64,000 bases of DNA from Halorubrum salinum. GTDB lineage: Archaea; Halobacteriota; Halobacteria; Halobacteriales; Haloferacaceae. Location of the stretch: positions 930,001 to 994,000 of the forward strand of contig NZ_JANHDO010000001.1 of assembly GCF_024494575.1 (NCBI RefSeq). Direction: 5' to 3'. The notes under the pieces are model-generated. The model was not told where the DNA came from. It saw only the letters and a program-made list of their open reading frames with translations, and did no database searches. A program made the translations under genes and the position numbers. Position 1 is the first letter of the stretch. Every line of letters begins with the position of its first letter. Shown piece after piece: positions 38,753 to 44,295 of this stretch.

Positions 38753-38843
38753 TCGGAGACGGCGGCGCGGTCACGGCGCTCGGACGACAGGACGACGCCC
38801 GATCCCCGGTGCGCTTATCGCCGTGCGACCGTCAGGGTCGCGT

Positions 38844-39518
38844 ATGGCACCGACGCTGGTCAGCGCCGCCGTCGGCGCGCTGCTCGCGGCGGCCTTGCTC
38901 GGGTCCGCCTTCGACCGCCGATCGGTCGCGATCGTCGTCGCGGCCGCGGCGGCTCCCGACCTCGACGCGGTCGCGAGCCTCGCCGTTCCGGGGGCGACGA
39001 ACGCGCTCTTTCACGCGCTCTGGATCCCGCTCGCAGTCGGGGTCGCGCTCCGGTGGGACACGGCACACCGCGAGCGGTCGTGGCTCCGCGAGCGCGCGGT
39101 CGGGGCGACGGGCGACCGCGCCGTCCGGGTCGCGTGGGTGGCGCTGGCGTCGTTCGTCGTCGCCGGGATCGGGCCCGACCTGTTCTGGCGGGCGGGAGTG
39201 AACCCCTTGTATCCGGTCCACGACGCCTACTACCTCGTCTCCGGACGGCTCGTGTTCTCGACACAGGAGGGGATAGTCCAGACGTTCGTGACGCTCGGCA
39301 GAGAGGGCCCGGGCGTGCTCCCGATCGAACGGCTCGGTACGAGCGCGACCCACGCCGTTCCGACGTGGGTGAACCCGGACGGCCGACCGGGGCTCTCGCT
39401 CGACGCCGAGCGGGAAATCGCGCTCGTCCGGACCGGCTGGCAGCTGATCGTCGTCGCGAGCGCGGTCGCGATGCTCGCGGTCCGGTTCCGGGAGACGGAC
39501 GCGGAGGTGACGCGCTGA
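38844..39518 (+). CDS. YdjM-like (DUF457) membrane protein, paralog A
   Basis: A 224-residue protein with about five hydrophobic segments, annotated in the family as membrane-bound metal-dependent hydrolase. It keeps APDLDAVAS and FHALW but has TLVSAAVGAL where paralog B has TVVHAGFALL, so the N-terminal histidine is missing. GIGPDLFW replaces paralog B's HVGLDW. A TATA-like GCTTATC lies 28 bases upstream. It is followed directly by paralog B, which starts one base after its stop. Confidence 0.8.
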   Translation: MAPTLVSAAVGALLAAALLGSAFDRRSVAIVVAAAAAPDLDAVASLAVPGATNALFHALWIPLAVGVALRWDTAHRERSWLRERAVGATGDRAVRVAWVALASFVVAGIGPDLFWRAGVNPLYPVHDAYYLVSGRLVFSTQEGIVQTFVTLGREGPGVLPIERLGTSATHAVPTWVNPDGRPGLSLDAEREIALVRTGWQLIVVASAVAMLAVRFRETDAEVTR

Positions 39519-40196
39519 ATGCCCTCGACGGTCGTCCACGCCGGCTTCGCGCTCCTGTTGGCCGCCGGTCTCCTCGGAAGGCACTACGACCGGCGGGCGC
39601 TCGCGGCGCTGCTCGTGATCGTCGTGGTCCCCGAGGTGGACAGCTTCCTCGGCCCGTTCATGCCCGGCGCACACCGGACGGTCGGCCACACCCTCGTGTT
39701 CCCCGCCCTCGCCGCGGGGCTCCTCTACTACGACACCCGAATTCGGGACCGATCGCTCGTCCGGAGCCGACTCGACGACTTCGAGCGCGCGGACCGGTGG
39801 ATCGCCGTCGCGTGGGTCGCGCTGTTCGCCCACGCGTTCGCGCACGTCGGCCTCGATTGGACGCATCTCGACGGCGTCAACGTCGCCTGGCCGCTCGTCG
39901 ACCGGTTCGTCCACCTCGACGGGGAGGTCGTCTTCTCGACCGCCGAGGGGTTCACGCAGACGTTCGTGGAGGTGCAGGTAGATCCCGAAACGGGGCGGCG
40001 GGCGGTCGACGCCGGCGTGACCGGAACCACAGAGACGGTCCACGTGAACAACCCCGTCGAGCCACGGGACCCCGACGAGGTCACCGAGGAGCCGGTCGAC
40101 CGCCGGTTCCCGGTCGCGAACGCGGGCTGGCGGCTCTACCTGATCGGACTCGGGCTGTTCACGCTCGCGGCGCGGCGGCTGCAAGGCGACGTGTGA
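39519..40196 (+). CDS. YdjM-like (DUF457) metal-dependent hydrolase, paralog B
   Basis: A 225-residue membrane protein of the YdjM/LexA-regulated family. Candidate metal ligands are intact: VHAGFA near the N-terminus, VVPEVDSFLG, GHTLVFP and HAFAHVGLDW. About five membrane segments. It is coupled to paralog A and shares the blocks PVHDAYYLVSGRLVFSTQEG and PLVDRFVHLDGEVVFSTAEG, so the pair arose by tandem duplication. The substrate is unknown. Confidence 0.85.
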   Translation: MPSTVVHAGFALLLAAGLLGRHYDRRALAALLVIVVVPEVDSFLGPFMPGAHRTVGHTLVFPALAAGLLYYDTRIRDRSLVRSRLDDFERADRWIAVAWVALFAHAFAHVGLDWTHLDGVNVAWPLVDRFVHLDGEVVFSTAEGFTQTFVEVQVDPETGRRAVDAGVTGTTETVHVNNPVEPRDPDEVTEEPVDRRFPVANAGWRLYLIGLGLFTLAARRLQGDV

Positions 40197-40254: not shown

Positions 40255-41295
40255 CTACGGCGTGATCACGGCGCGGCCGTCGATCTCACCGTGTTCGAGC
40301 TTTTCTGCGACGGTGTTCACGTCGCCGAGGTCGTACCGGCTGGTGTGTAGATCCACGTCGCCCTGCTCGACGAGCGCGACGAGCTCCTGTAGCTCGGCGT
40401 ACCGCCCGACGATGTTGCCGACGAACGAGAACTCGCCGTTCACCAAGGCCTGCGCCGGCTCGTGGATGTGTCCGCCGTAGCCGATGATGTGGTGGTCGCC
40501 GCCGGCGGCGGTGACGTCGGGCGCGTAGGCGGTCGTCTGGTCCGCGCCGACGAAGTCGAGCACCTGCGCGGCACCCGTCCCGTCGGTGATGGACTCGACT
40601 TCGGCGGGCACGTCGGCCTCCGTCGGGTTGACGAGGTGGTCGGCGCCGTACCGGTCCGCGAGGTCGAGCGCGGCGTTTTTCACGTCGACCGCGGTGATCC
40701 GCGCCGCGCTCATCGCGTCGAGACACTGGAGCCCGATGTGGCCGAGCCCACCGATGCCGATGACGACCGCGTGGTCGCCGGGGTTCAGTTCGCCGACCGC
40801 CTTCTTCGCCGCGTGGTACGCCGTGATGCCGGCGTCGGCGTGCGGCGCGATGTCGACCGGATCGACGCCGCCCGGCAGCGGGATCACGGAGCGCTCGCTG
40901 GTGTGGAGGTAGTCGGCGAAGCCGCCGTCGGTCGTCAGCCCGTTGAACGCGTCGTTCTCGCAGTACATCGTCTCGCCGAGCCGGCAGGGCCGACAGGTGC
41001 CACAGGTCTGTACGGGGTGACAGATCACCGCGTCCCCCTCGGAGACGATCTCGACGTCGTCGCCCGTCTCGACGACGGTCCCCGCGTTCTCGTGGCCCAA
41101 GGTCATCGGGAGGTCCTGCGGGACGTACTCCTCCCACATCCCCTCGATGATGTGATTGTCGGTCTGACACCAGCCCGCGCCCTCGACCTCGACTATCACG
41201 TCGCTGGCTCCGGTCGCGTGCGGCCGATCGACCTCGTCGATCTGCAGCCCCTCGGTCATGTCGTCCGTGTACTCGTGGAGTCGGGCAGCTTGCAT
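40255..41295 (-). CDS. zinc-dependent alcohol dehydrogenase
   Basis: A 346-residue medium-chain dehydrogenase. Catalytic zinc ligands are Cys43, His68 and Glu69 (GHENAG); the structural zinc has Cys98, Cys101, Cys104 and Cys112. The NAD(P) motif is VVIGIGGLGHIGLQ. It would interconvert an alcohol and an aldehyde or ketone. It is divergent from the amidohydrolase and MIP18 genes, whose bacterial relatives lie in soluble di-iron monooxygenase clusters that also carry an alcohol dehydrogenase. Propanol-type substrates are therefore inferred, not shown. A 6-1-6 palindrome lies just before its ATG. Confidence 0.92.
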   Translation of the reverse strand: MQAARLHEYTDDMTEGLQIDEVDRPHATGASDVIVEVEGAGWCQTDNHIIEGMWEEYVPQDLPMTLGHENAGTVVETGDDVEIVSEGDAVICHPVQTCGTCRPCRLGETMYCENDAFNGLTTDGGFADYLHTSERSVIPLPGGVDPVDIAPHADAGITAYHAAKKAVGELNPGDHAVVIGIGGLGHIGLQCLDAMSAARITAVDVKNAALDLADRYGADHLVNPTEADVPAEVESITDGTGAAQVLDFVGADQTTAYAPDVTAAGGDHHIIGYGGHIHEPAQALVNGEFSFVGNIVGRYAELQELVALVEQGDVDLHTSRYDLGDVNTVAEKLEHGEIDGRAVITP

Positions 41296-41297
41296 GT

Positions 41298-41310
41298 GAG
41301 ACACTGTCTC
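41298..41310. promoter_or_regulatory. palindrome next to the alcohol dehydrogenase start
   Basis: GAGACA-C-TGTCTC is a perfect 6-1-6 inverted repeat that begins two bases from the dehydrogenase ATG (41295). A TATA-like CGTTTATGC on the minus strand lies at 41322-41330, so the palindrome overlaps the presumed start of transcription. Candidate operator or 5' hairpin. Confidence 0.5.
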
Positions 41311-41372
41311 GTTTCCTCCTGCATAAACGTTCGTTATAGTCTTGTAATTATACTGAACGATCCTTATTGTTA

Positions 41373-41391
41373 TGTGTGGTCGGACCACACA
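41373..41391. promoter_or_regulatory. palindromic operator candidate before the amidohydrolase
   Basis: TGTGTGGTC-G-GACCACACA is a perfect 9-1-9 inverted repeat ending nine bases before the ATG at 41401. The AT-rich CCTTATTGTTA (41362-41372) directly upstream is the TATA candidate. The position between TATA and start is where an archaeal repressor would block initiation. Confidence 0.65.
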
Positions 41392-41400
41392 CAGAAACGC

Positions 41401-42462
41401 ATGTACGAGATGGACGGTGAGGAGATCTTCGTCATCGACGGGCACGTCCACCTGTGGGACGCTCGCACGGAGAACATCACGCACGAGGGGGGCGAGCAGT
41501 TCATCCAGTGTTTCTACGATTATCACACGGGATTCACGCCGGAGGAGAAGCAGTGGGACATGGAGGAGTACCGTCACTACGGCGCAGACCGGATGGCGAC
41601 CGACCTGTTCGGGAACGCGGCGGCCGACATGGCGATCTTCCAGCCCACGTACCTCACGGAGTTCTACGACGAGGGGTTCAACACGACCGAACAGAACGCC
41701 GAGTTGGCCGAGGAGTACCCGGAGCGGTTCGTGTTGAACGGGAGCTTCGACCCCCGTGACGGCGAGGAGGGGCTCCGTTACCTCGAACACCTCAAAGAGG
41801 AGTACGACATCCCCGGCGTGAAGCTGTACACGGCTGCGTGGCGCGACGACTCGAAGGGGTGGCGGCTCGACAGCGACGACGCCTTCGAGTTCTTAGAGAA
41901 GTGCGCCGACCTCGGGATCGAGAACATCAACGCCCACAAGGGACCGACGATCCGCCCGCTCAACCGCGACGCCTTCGACGTGAAGGACGTCGACGACGCC
42001 GCGTCGTCGTTCCCCGAACTCAACTTCATCGTCAACCACGTCGGGCTCCCGCGGCTCGACGACTTCTGTTGGATCGCGGCTCAGGAGCCGAACGTCTACG
42101 GCGGCCTCGCGGTCGCGTCGGCGATGTCGACGAACCGGAAGCGGAAGTTCGGCGAGATCATGGGCGAGCTGCTCTACTGGCTCGGCGAAGACCGCATCCT
42201 GTTCGGCTCCGACTACGCGCTGTGGAACCCCGACTGGCTCGTCGATCAGGTGATGAACGCCGAACTCACCGACGAGCAGCGCGACGAGTACGGCGTCGAA
42301 CTCGACGTCGACACGATGAAGAAAGTCATGGGCGAGAACGCCGCCCGGCTGTACGATATCGACATCGAAGAGAAGAAACGCCAGTTCCGAGACGACGCCG
42401 TCACCGAACGGTTCGACCTCGCCGACCACTACGGCGGCGACGCGGGGGCCGCGGCGGACTGA
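41401..42462 (+). CDS. amidohydrolase family protein (monooxygenase-cluster type)
   Basis: A 353-residue Amidohydrolase_2 TIM-barrel protein. Metal-site candidates are H15 and H17 in GHVHLWD, a lysine in PGVKLYTAAW, histidines in NAHKGPTIRPLNRDAFDV and FIVNHVGLPR, and the aspartate in FGSDYALWNPDWL. The blocks EQFIQCFYDYH, HKGPTIRPLNRDAFDV, LPRLDDFCWIA and SDYALW recall the amidohydrolase encoded in actinobacterial propane/THF soluble di-iron monooxygenase clusters. Its exact reaction is unknown there too. It shares one base with the next gene (TGATG), so the two are coupled. Confidence 0.88.
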   Translation: MYEMDGEEIFVIDGHVHLWDARTENITHEGGEQFIQCFYDYHTGFTPEEKQWDMEEYRHYGADRMATDLFGNAAADMAIFQPTYLTEFYDEGFNTTEQNAELAEEYPERFVLNGSFDPRDGEEGLRYLEHLKEEYDIPGVKLYTAAWRDDSKGWRLDSDDAFEFLEKCADLGIENINAHKGPTIRPLNRDAFDVKDVDDAASSFPELNFIVNHVGLPRLDDFCWIAAQEPNVYGGLAVASAMSTNRKRKFGEIMGELLYWLGEDRILFGSDYALWNPDWLVDQVMNAELTDEQRDEYGVELDVDTMKKVMGENAARLYDIDIEEKKRQFRDDAVTERFDLADHYGGDAGAAAD

Positions 42463-43277
42463 TGTCTGGGAGCCGCACGGACCCCGGCGGCGACGCCGGT
42501 TCCGCCGACACCGGCGACACCGCCGACGCCGCGGAGCTGACAGACGGTCCGCGCGTCGTGGCGGTTCGCGACAGGCTCGACCGCGTCGAGGACCCCGAGC
42601 TGGCCCGGTCGATCGTCGAACTCGACTACGTCGACGCGATCGATATCGACGGCGGACGCGTGCTCGTGCAGTTCACCCTCCCGACCGCGTGGTGTTCGCC
42701 GGCGTTCGCGTGGATGATGGCGGTCGACGCCCGCGACGAGGTCGAGTCGCTCGCGTGGGTCGACACGGCGCGGATCGAGCTGTGCGACCACATGCACGAC
42801 GAGGAGATCACGACGGGCGTCAACGCCCGCGACACCTTCGGCGAGACGTTCCCAGACGCCGACGGCGGCGTCGCCGAAGTCAGGGCCGCCATCGCCGACA
42901 AGGCCCGGGTCTCGCGACAGCGCGAGGCGATCTCGACGCTGCTCGACGCCGGCGTCGATCCGGCGCAGATCGTCGCGCTCGACCGCGACGACGTGACGTT
43001 CGACGGCGAGGCCGCGCACGTCGAACTCGACGGGCTCTCCGTCGTCGTCGACCGCGACCCGATCGAGACGTACGTGAACCGGGCGGCCGCGAGCGGCCAC
43101 GTCACCGACGCCGGTGACACGCTGTTTCTGACGCCAGAGGGCGATCAGATCGCGCCCGACCGGCTCGACCGGGTCCAGAAGCGCGCCCGCCTCGCCGACG
43201 TCAACATGAGCGGACAGGGCGCGGTGTGCGACGCGCTCCACAGGGCTCGCCACGGGTCGGACGACGAGAGCGGGTAA
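42462..43277 (+). CDS. MIP18/DUF59-type iron-sulfur or metal-cluster assembly protein
   Basis: A 271-residue protein. The DUF59 part (about residues 35-110) has RVEDPELARSIVELDYV and LVQFTLPTAWCSPAFAWMM, with the single conserved cysteine of the family. The remaining 150 residues (from CDHMHDEEITTGVNARDTFG) are an extension seen in the monooxygenase-cluster variety. DUF59 proteins help insert metal or Fe-S centres in clients, so it may mature the amidohydrolase, a dehydrogenase or a distant di-iron oxygenase. Coupled to the preceding gene by TGATG. Confidence 0.85.
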   Translation: MSGSRTDPGGDAGSADTGDTADAAELTDGPRVVAVRDRLDRVEDPELARSIVELDYVDAIDIDGGRVLVQFTLPTAWCSPAFAWMMAVDARDEVESLAWVDTARIELCDHMHDEEITTGVNARDTFGETFPDADGGVAEVRAAIADKARVSRQREAISTLLDAGVDPAQIVALDRDDVTFDGEAAHVELDGLSVVVDRDPIETYVNRAAASGHVTDAGDTLFLTPEGDQIAPDRLDRVQKRARLADVNMSGQGAVCDALHRARHGSDDESG

Positions 43278-43575: not shown

Positions 43576-44295
43576 TCACCGCCCGAATCCGGTCGGCGGC
43601 TCGGCGTGACGGGAGCGGCGGCCTCGTCCCCGTCGGCTCGCCGCGTCGGCCTCCCGGGGCGTGCCGCTTCGGTCACTCCGTTCGCCGACGTGGTTGCGAG
43701 CCGTCGCGTACGCCTCCCGGACGCGTCGGAACGACTCCTCGTCGCCGCCCTGATCGGGATGCGTCTCCTTGACGCGCTCGCGGTACGCGCGTTTCACCTC
43801 GTCGCCGTCGGCGCCGCGGGGGACGTCGAGCTCGTCGAACGCGGCGGCGACCGGATCGGGGGCCGACGTGGCGGCACCTCCCCGCGTCCCCCAGTCGGGC
43901 TCGGTCACGTCGAAGGGCAACCGCCGGCCGAGCCCGCGTCCGGGCATCTCGTGTTCACAGAGCACCGTGTACACGCCTTCTCCCTCCAGTCTGAAGTAGT
44001 CGTGCGCGTCGAACGTGATGGCGACGTCTCGCTCGGGTAGATAAAAGGGAACGCCGACCTCGCCGAGGGCGTGGTCCTCGGTGAATCGGACGTCCGTCGC
44101 CGTCAGGTAGTCTCGGATCTCGCGGCGGCGGCGCTCGTCGCCCGTGTGCCGTCTGCCGTCGCTCGCCGTTCCGCCGGGAGCGATGAGTCTGTCGCCGAGG
44201 TAGAAGACGAGCGCGACGACGCCGGAGGCGACGATGCCGGCCGCGACCCCGAGGAGTACCCACGTCGGCAGCGCGGTGACGGATTCGACGACCAC
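43576..44295 (-). CDS. membrane-anchored J-domain protein
   Basis: A 239-residue protein with one N-terminal membrane helix (about residues 10-34), a soluble middle domain, and a J-domain near residues 155-210: AFDELDVPRGADGDEVKRAY then RERVKETHPDQGGDEESF with the HPD tripeptide. J-domains stimulate Hsp70 ATPase, so it would recruit DnaK to the membrane. The C-terminal basic tail (RRGRGRRSRH) is unusual for a halophile. Starts on a GTG. Confidence 0.88.
   Translation of the reverse strand: MVVESVTALPTWVLLGVAAGIVASGVVALVFYLGDRLIAPGGTASDGRRHTGDERRRREIRDYLTATDVRFTEDHALGEVGVPFYLPERDVAITFDAHDYFRLEGEGVYTVLCEHEMPGRGLGRRLPFDVTEPDWGTRGGAATSAPDPVAAAFDELDVPRGADGDEVKRAYRERVKETHPDQGGDEESFRRVREAYATARNHVGERSDRSGTPREADAASRRGRGRRSRHAEPPTGFGR

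Follow-up and report, generated by a model that had tools for sequence, protein, structure and literature searches.

A locus in Halorubrum salinum raises the question of why genes that accompany a bacterial oxygenase should lie together in a genome in which no such oxygenase is found. In the window analyzed here (64,000 nucleotides of contig NZ_JANHDO010000001.1, positions 930,001 to 994,000 of the forward strand), genes for a zinc alcohol dehydrogenase (ADH), an Amidohydrolase_2 protein (AH) and a long DUF59 protein stand together at 40255-43277, as a first-pass annotation had reported; the Pfam matches of all three are above the curated cut-offs. That annotation pointed to comparable genes accompanying the soluble di-iron monooxygenases (SDIMOs) of actinobacteria and offered two readings, namely that the set serves an unseen oxygenase elsewhere, or that it is a self-standing pathway in which the DUF59 protein matures the amidohydrolase. 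The second is favored by the evidence presented below, and the locus is read, with a probability of roughly 55%, as a self-standing catabolic cassette in which the DUF59 protein is the dedicated assembly partner of AH. Its components are as follows.

40255..41295, minus strand: ADH, a zinc-dependent, NAD(P)-type medium-chain alcohol dehydrogenase of 346 aa (Pfam ADH_N 91 bits, ADH_zinc_N 76 bits)
41296..41400, no strand: intergenic region of 105 bp, a divergent promoter region common to ADH and AH, with two perfect inverted repeats
41401..42462, plus strand: AH, an Amidohydro_2 (PF04909) TIM-barrel protein and predicted metallo-enzyme of 353 aa (Pfam 160 bits)
42462..43277, plus strand: DUF59/MIP18 protein of 271 aa with an additional C-terminal domain (FeS_assembly_P 53 bits, residues 34-103)

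Conservation of the trio and of the AH-DUF59 pair

Across 391 genomes of the class, AH matches (E<=1e-20) were found in 152. An ortholog (identity of at least 55%, up to 96% in relatives) is present in 123, about a third of the sampled haloarchaea, and paralogs alone (identity of 35% or less) in a further 29, so that the two groups are clearly separated. The nearest locus, that of Halorubrum laminariae, encodes an AH 98% identical to that of the window. The loci compared comprised forty 20-kb regions, genome-contig loci and one plasmid, and numbered 41 once near copies had been removed. In all 41 the DUF59 gene adjoins AH, downstream on the same strand, and in 36 an orthologous ADH lies within 3 kb of AH (on the opposite strand in 34). 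The next most common neighboring families reached at most 7 of 40 loci, the one higher count in that tally being apparently an antisense frame of the DUF59 gene itself. Co-location of the three genes is far above chance, and their linkage is maintained at 55-98% AH identity, in many genera, amid unrelated flanks and across domains. One AH ortholog (G323:C1:1594378-1595426) was recovered as two overlapping matches in different frames, reflecting a frameshift or a sequencing error.

The AH-DUF59 pair is an invariant unit within this conserved linkage. Divergent AH paralogs (25-35% identity) have a DUF59 gene directly adjacent in 20 of 20 haloarchaeal regions, and a DUF59 gene also stands beside an AH paralog in a Natrinema plasmid and in Nonomuraea. 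As a control, 25 related genomes were examined: 12 of their 13 AH orthologs adjoin a PF01883 match, the thirteenth lying at a contig end, as do two AH paralogs, whereas none of the 29 other Amidohydro_2 matches above 50 bits does so. Likewise, none of the five other Amidohydro_2 matches in the H. salinum genome is near a PF01883 match. The pairing belongs to this branch of amidohydrolases, with or without an oxygenase, and because every divergent paralog is paired and no other Amidohydro_2 protein of the control is, the DUF59 protein most likely serves AH rather than an oxygenase.

These figures also bear on the proposal that the members of the trio serve separate pathways and have remained together through inheritance of the locus, the DUF59 protein being a generic SufT-like factor for iron-sulfur (Fe-S) assembly. 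Five loci do lack a nearby ADH, and 65 of the 79 DUF59 matches in the control sample are not near an amidohydrolase, which speaks in its favor. It is nevertheless very unlikely given the breadth of the linkage and the total lack of pairing among unrelated Amidohydro_2 matches. The DUF59 protein also falls far below the NCBIfam equivalog cut-offs for both SufT (16.3 versus 202.6) and PaaD (31.4 versus 180 for paad_haloarch). Moreover, the ATG of the DUF59 gene (42462-42464) overlaps the TGA stop codon of AH (42460-42462), an arrangement from which the two genes are probably translationally coupled.

Bacterial relatives and the di-iron monooxygenase link

The bacterial distribution of the cassette was surveyed on plasmids, using tblastn, and at four genome-contig loci. 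Plasmid-encoded AH orthologs are 49-58% identical to the haloarchaeal protein, and hosts of bacterial AH include Caballeronia, Thermomicrobium, Peribacillus, Rhizobium, Aminobacter, Bradyrhizobium, Paracoccus, Ponticoccus, Gemmobacter, and Rhodococcus. No plasmid record with an AH ortholog lacks a DUF59 gene; the DUF59 proteins of these clusters are 26-36% identical and the ADHs 44-49%. The sequence blocks that the first-pass annotation had thought to be shared do align with the SDIMO-linked proteins of Aminobacter, EQFIQCFYDYH with KQFVECFYAYH and HKGPTIRPLNRDAFDV with HKGPTIIPLNKDAFDV.

The suggested association with di-iron monooxygenases was borne out, in that close homologs of all three proteins occur beside bacterial SDIMO genes. 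Ten bacterial AH clusters contain a complete SDIMO and one further cluster a remnant only. Genes for the alpha subunit, reductase, beta subunit, and coupling protein lie beside AH in Caballeronia zhejiangensis, Aminobacter, Ponticoccus, Paracoccus aminophilus, Bradyrhizobium CB82, and Gemmobacter, and the full set was detected by tblastn in Caballeronia SBC1, Rhizobium CB3060, Rhodococcus JS3073, and a candidate Eremiobacterota bacterium. The group V-type (mim/prm type) clusters resemble the haloarchaeal locus in uniting orthologous AH, DUF59, and secondary-type ADH genes; they differ in that the haloarchaeal trio is devoid of alpha, reductase, beta, coupling-protein, and GroEL genes, and in that the haloarchaeal ADH is mostly divergent and not co-directional.

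In such operons AH and DUF59 could be maturation or accessory factors of the oxygenase, which in haloarchaea would serve a different oxygenase elsewhere. Their position is suggestive of this: in most of the ten SDIMO clusters AH and DUF59 directly follow the coupling-protein gene and precede GroEL (in some, ADH lies between the coupling-protein gene and AH/DUF59), and both are marked in a published figure of SDIMO operons, where the two accessory genes are labeled 'a' and 'b' (PMC9213486). The distribution of the oxygenases themselves makes an accessory role unlikely. The unseen oxygenase envisaged by the first-pass annotation, if taken as an SDIMO, finds no support, as the H. salinum genome (99.86% complete) contains no match to the SDIMO alpha/beta domain (Phenol_Hydrox, PF02332); an oxygenase of unrelated type elsewhere in the genome is conceivable. 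A search of the same genome for an MmoB coupling protein was also negative, a weak indication of absence since the control set was likewise empty. The alpha/beta domain occurs in only 4 of the 391 haloarchaeal genomes, none of which has an AH ortholog or has AH or DUF59 beside its SDIMO, and SDIMO-free bacterial loci retain the AH-DUF59 pair. The complete conservation of the predicted metal ligands further suggests that AH is itself catalytic. The SDIMO alpha subunits of the four haloarchaea (L193, 4-12 kb, G064; L194, 9-15 kb, G217; L195; L196) match PF02332 at approximately 198 bits and are 24-26% identical to the propane type, and their small subunits are apparently toluene-4-monooxygenase-like.

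Loss or absence of the oxygenase is also evident in bacteria. The Rhodococcus aetherivorans BW2 plasmid is a natural case of oxygenase loss, having kept AH, DUF59, ADH, and GroEL; of the four SDIMO proteins an alpha remnant alone was found in the stretch, with no reductase, beta subunit, or coupling protein. This remnant (L154, 5427-8272, 64% identity) runs directly into an ADH-like stretch. AH and DUF59 occur without an SDIMO in the stretches read from Thermomicrobium roseum, Peribacillus, Rhizobium N324, and Bauldia. The T. roseum DSM 5159 megaplasmid is the closest parallel to the haloarchaeal arrangement in being an SDIMO-free trio of orthologs, differing in its gene order (DUF59-AH-ADH on one strand) and in its linked IclR regulator (IclR - DUF59 - AH - ADH). 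In a tree of 49 rows the haloarchaeal sequences form one supported clade (100/100), whereas the SDIMO-linked rows do not form one clade (3 changes); the link to the oxygenase has therefore arisen or disappeared on more than one occasion, and the haloarchaeal version is accounted for by a single acquisition or by common origin.

The pattern anticipated by the first-pass annotation, of homologs recurring beside SDIMO genes in bacteria and of a conserved SDIMO-free trio in haloarchaea, is thus the one observed. The self-standing reading fits because the AH-DUF59 pair persists in the four SDIMO-free bacteria, in haloarchaea, and in the divergent paralogs; that part of the annotation is favored, and its further suggestion, that the DUF59 protein matures AH, is plausible from their co-location. 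The trio is a new variant assembled from known parts. No published account of an SDIMO-free trio or of AH-DUF59 pairing was found in the literature searched, which left most subscription journals outside its reach, nor was an assigned role found there for the AH and DUF59 accessory genes of propane and acetone monooxygenase operons. The oxygenase-free version separates the two functions, indicating that the AH-DUF59 pair has a job of its own.

The predicted active site of AH

The AH match spans the whole Amidohydro_2 profile (160.2 bits; cut-off 26.4), and the AlphaFold2 model of AH (pLDDT 86, pTM 0.89) finds its closest structural matches among Amidohydro_2 decarboxylases, hydratases, and hydrolases, with Z scores of up to 25 (25.4 to 3irs). 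A profile search for solved relatives returned distant Amidohydro_2 proteins only; a single-sequence search matched nothing but designed PPR proteins, at residues 122-173, and these were rejected as a chance helix match. D13, H15, K141, Y143, H179, K180, H213, and D271 are invariant among AH orthologs, and H17 is kept in all but 3 of 27 ortholog rows. The model places K141 in strand 4, H179 at the end of strand 5, H213 after strand 6, and D271 after the last barrel strand, consistent with a TIM barrel whose predicted metal ligands (H15/H17, H179, H213, and D271) lie at the strand ends. The order of these residues appears to resemble that of binuclear hydrolases of the dihydroorotase kind. The KLY(T/P)A motif and the location of Lys141 where strand 4 ends suggest that this residue may be a carbamate-type lysine; when the profiles of AH and dihydroorotase were compared to probe this role, no alignment resulted. 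The AH paralogs that are paired with short DUF59 proteins (L173-L192) have an unusual predicted metal site, in which D13, H17, K141, H179, and H213 are kept, H15 and D271 are lost, and a conserved histidine occupies the position of N276.

Monooxygenases are known within PF04909 (PMC10811679; PMC7782822), and AH might accordingly activate O2 itself in the manner of AibH2, PtmU3, and SfbO, replacing the SDIMO, with the DUF59 protein assembling an iron site and ADH oxidizing the hydroxylated product. AH shares the Pfam family, the TIM-barrel fold, and a predicted metal site with AibH1H2, PtmU3, and SfbO; its Foldseek matches include AibH1H2 (8ful) and a candidate oxygenase from PMC10811679 (8sm8); and an iron enzyme would suit a dedicated DUF59 partner. 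However, the ligands of AibH2 (Asp25, His27, His211, Glu265, Asp337, and His340; PMC7782822) do not appear to be reproduced by position when the two proteins are compared by strand order: AH has His213 in place of the glutamate and Leu/Ile274 in place of the histidine at Asp+3 (Asp271+3), and has the invariant Lys141 instead. Nor is there a Rieske or ferredoxin gene among the flanking genes at 36.5-44.3 kb of the window, so that AH has a dedicated DUF59 protein instead of a nearby Rieske partner gene, and in structure AH comes closest to decarboxylases, hydratases, and hydrolases. An oxygenase role for AH is a minority reading, and a quite unlikely one, given the apparently differing ligand pattern. 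Equally doubtful is the broader proposal that AH and DUF59 constitute a hitherto unknown kind of redox enzyme with the amidohydrolase fold, which might activate O2, would depend on DUF59 for installation of its cofactor, and would be the missing oxygenase of haloarchaea.

The DUF59 protein, ADH and the proposed pathway

DUF59 proteins usually act in Fe-S assembly. The DUF59 protein of the window matches PF01883 at 53 bits (cut-off 23.5), with an invariant DPEL motif (D44-P45-E46-L47) and an invariant C78, and structural matches to its model (pLDDT 88) are to DUF59/CIAO2B. The motif and fold are common to PaaD, SufT, and CIAO2B, from which the protein is set apart by its long C-terminal extension, in addition to the PaaD and SufT cut-offs that it does not reach. 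The C-terminal half is weakly similar to the catalytic domains of tyrosine recombinases (XerA/XerD/Cre), at E=0.14 by sequence, and by fold with Foldseek probabilities of up to 0.99 and low TM scores. Taken with its constant position beside AH, the roles of DUF59 proteins elsewhere make maturation of the AH cofactor a natural function to propose. The pairing rule can be put as a testable proposition, that enzymes of the amidohydrolase superfamily can depend on a DUF59 protein dedicated to their maturation, a situation loosely comparable to that of the urease accessory proteins.

The nearest solved structures to ADH are those of Aeropyrum pernix ADH (1h2b, 326 bits) and then Rhodococcus ruber ADH-A and its variants (approximately 190-196 bits), scores that would place it in the secondary-alcohol dehydrogenase clade; the next best ADH of the same genome is 31% identical. 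With 2-hydroxyisobutyrate as growth substrate, Actinomycetospora chiangmaiensis devoted 3.2% of its proteome to the amidohydrolase-like protein of its Mim cluster and 6.1% to the Adh1 of that cluster; levels were similar on acetone, for which a route through acetol and methylglyoxal to pyruvate is thought to operate (PMC7176365). A pyruvate-dehydrogenase-type E1 alpha gene lies behind ADH in 5 of 40 haloarchaeal loci, a glycolaldehyde/glycerol dehydrogenase gene is near the trio in 3 of 40, and the paralog pairs adjoin genes for SDR or ADH proteins, aldehyde dehydrogenase or AFOR, and acetyl-CoA-synthetase-like proteins. IclR regulators are present at some haloarchaeal loci. Because of the ADH clade, the Mim proteome data, and these neighbors, small-alcohol or ketone catabolism is favored as the probable field of the trio, indicating an undescribed pathway of this kind in about a third of the sampled haloarchaeal genomes.

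In the proposed cassette, ADH would produce a ketone by oxidizing a small secondary alcohol or a hydroxy compound, and AH, through its predicted H-x-H / Lys / His / His / Asp metal site, would perform a hydrolytic or carbon-carbon lytic step on the ketone or its product, using a metal cofactor that the DUF59 protein would supply or install. In bacteria, the same cassette would have become linked to di-iron monooxygenase operons, whose products turn propane or acetone into the alcohol or hydroxyketone, while haloarchaea and some bacteria would use it without an oxygenase step. Several observations weigh against this scheme. ADH is missing within 3 kb in 5 of the 41 haloarchaeal loci, and also in Peribacillus and Rhizobium N324, and may perhaps be a common partner without being an obligatory one. 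AH has no conserved set of cysteines able to bind a cluster in the alignment, although Fe-S assembly is the usual business of DUF59 proteins. With paralogs that lack H15 and D271, it is not certain that one metal chemistry is common to all AH-DUF59 pairs, and the suggestion of a ketone depends on the probable ADH clade and on the bacterial context.

The intergenic region between ADH and AH contains a 9-1-9 perfect inverted repeat at 41373-41391 (TGTGTGGTC-G-GACCACACA), just before the start of AH, and a second perfect inverted repeat, of 6-1-6 form, at 41298-41310 (GAGACA-C-TGTCTC), which adjoins the ADH start. Both are possible operators, judging by their symmetry and position; no single operator motif was found to be clearly kept across the divergent promoters of the compared loci, with weak enrichment at most. 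The flanking genes encode DacZ, an MscS-type channel, two YdjM proteins, and DnaJ. The YdjM-type membrane protein genes lie in tandem (38823-39515 and 39519-40196) directly downstream of ADH. A membrane-anchored DnaJ-domain gene (43576-44295) follows the trio, and the recurrence of a similar gene near the trio in several other loci suggests shared chromosomal synteny.

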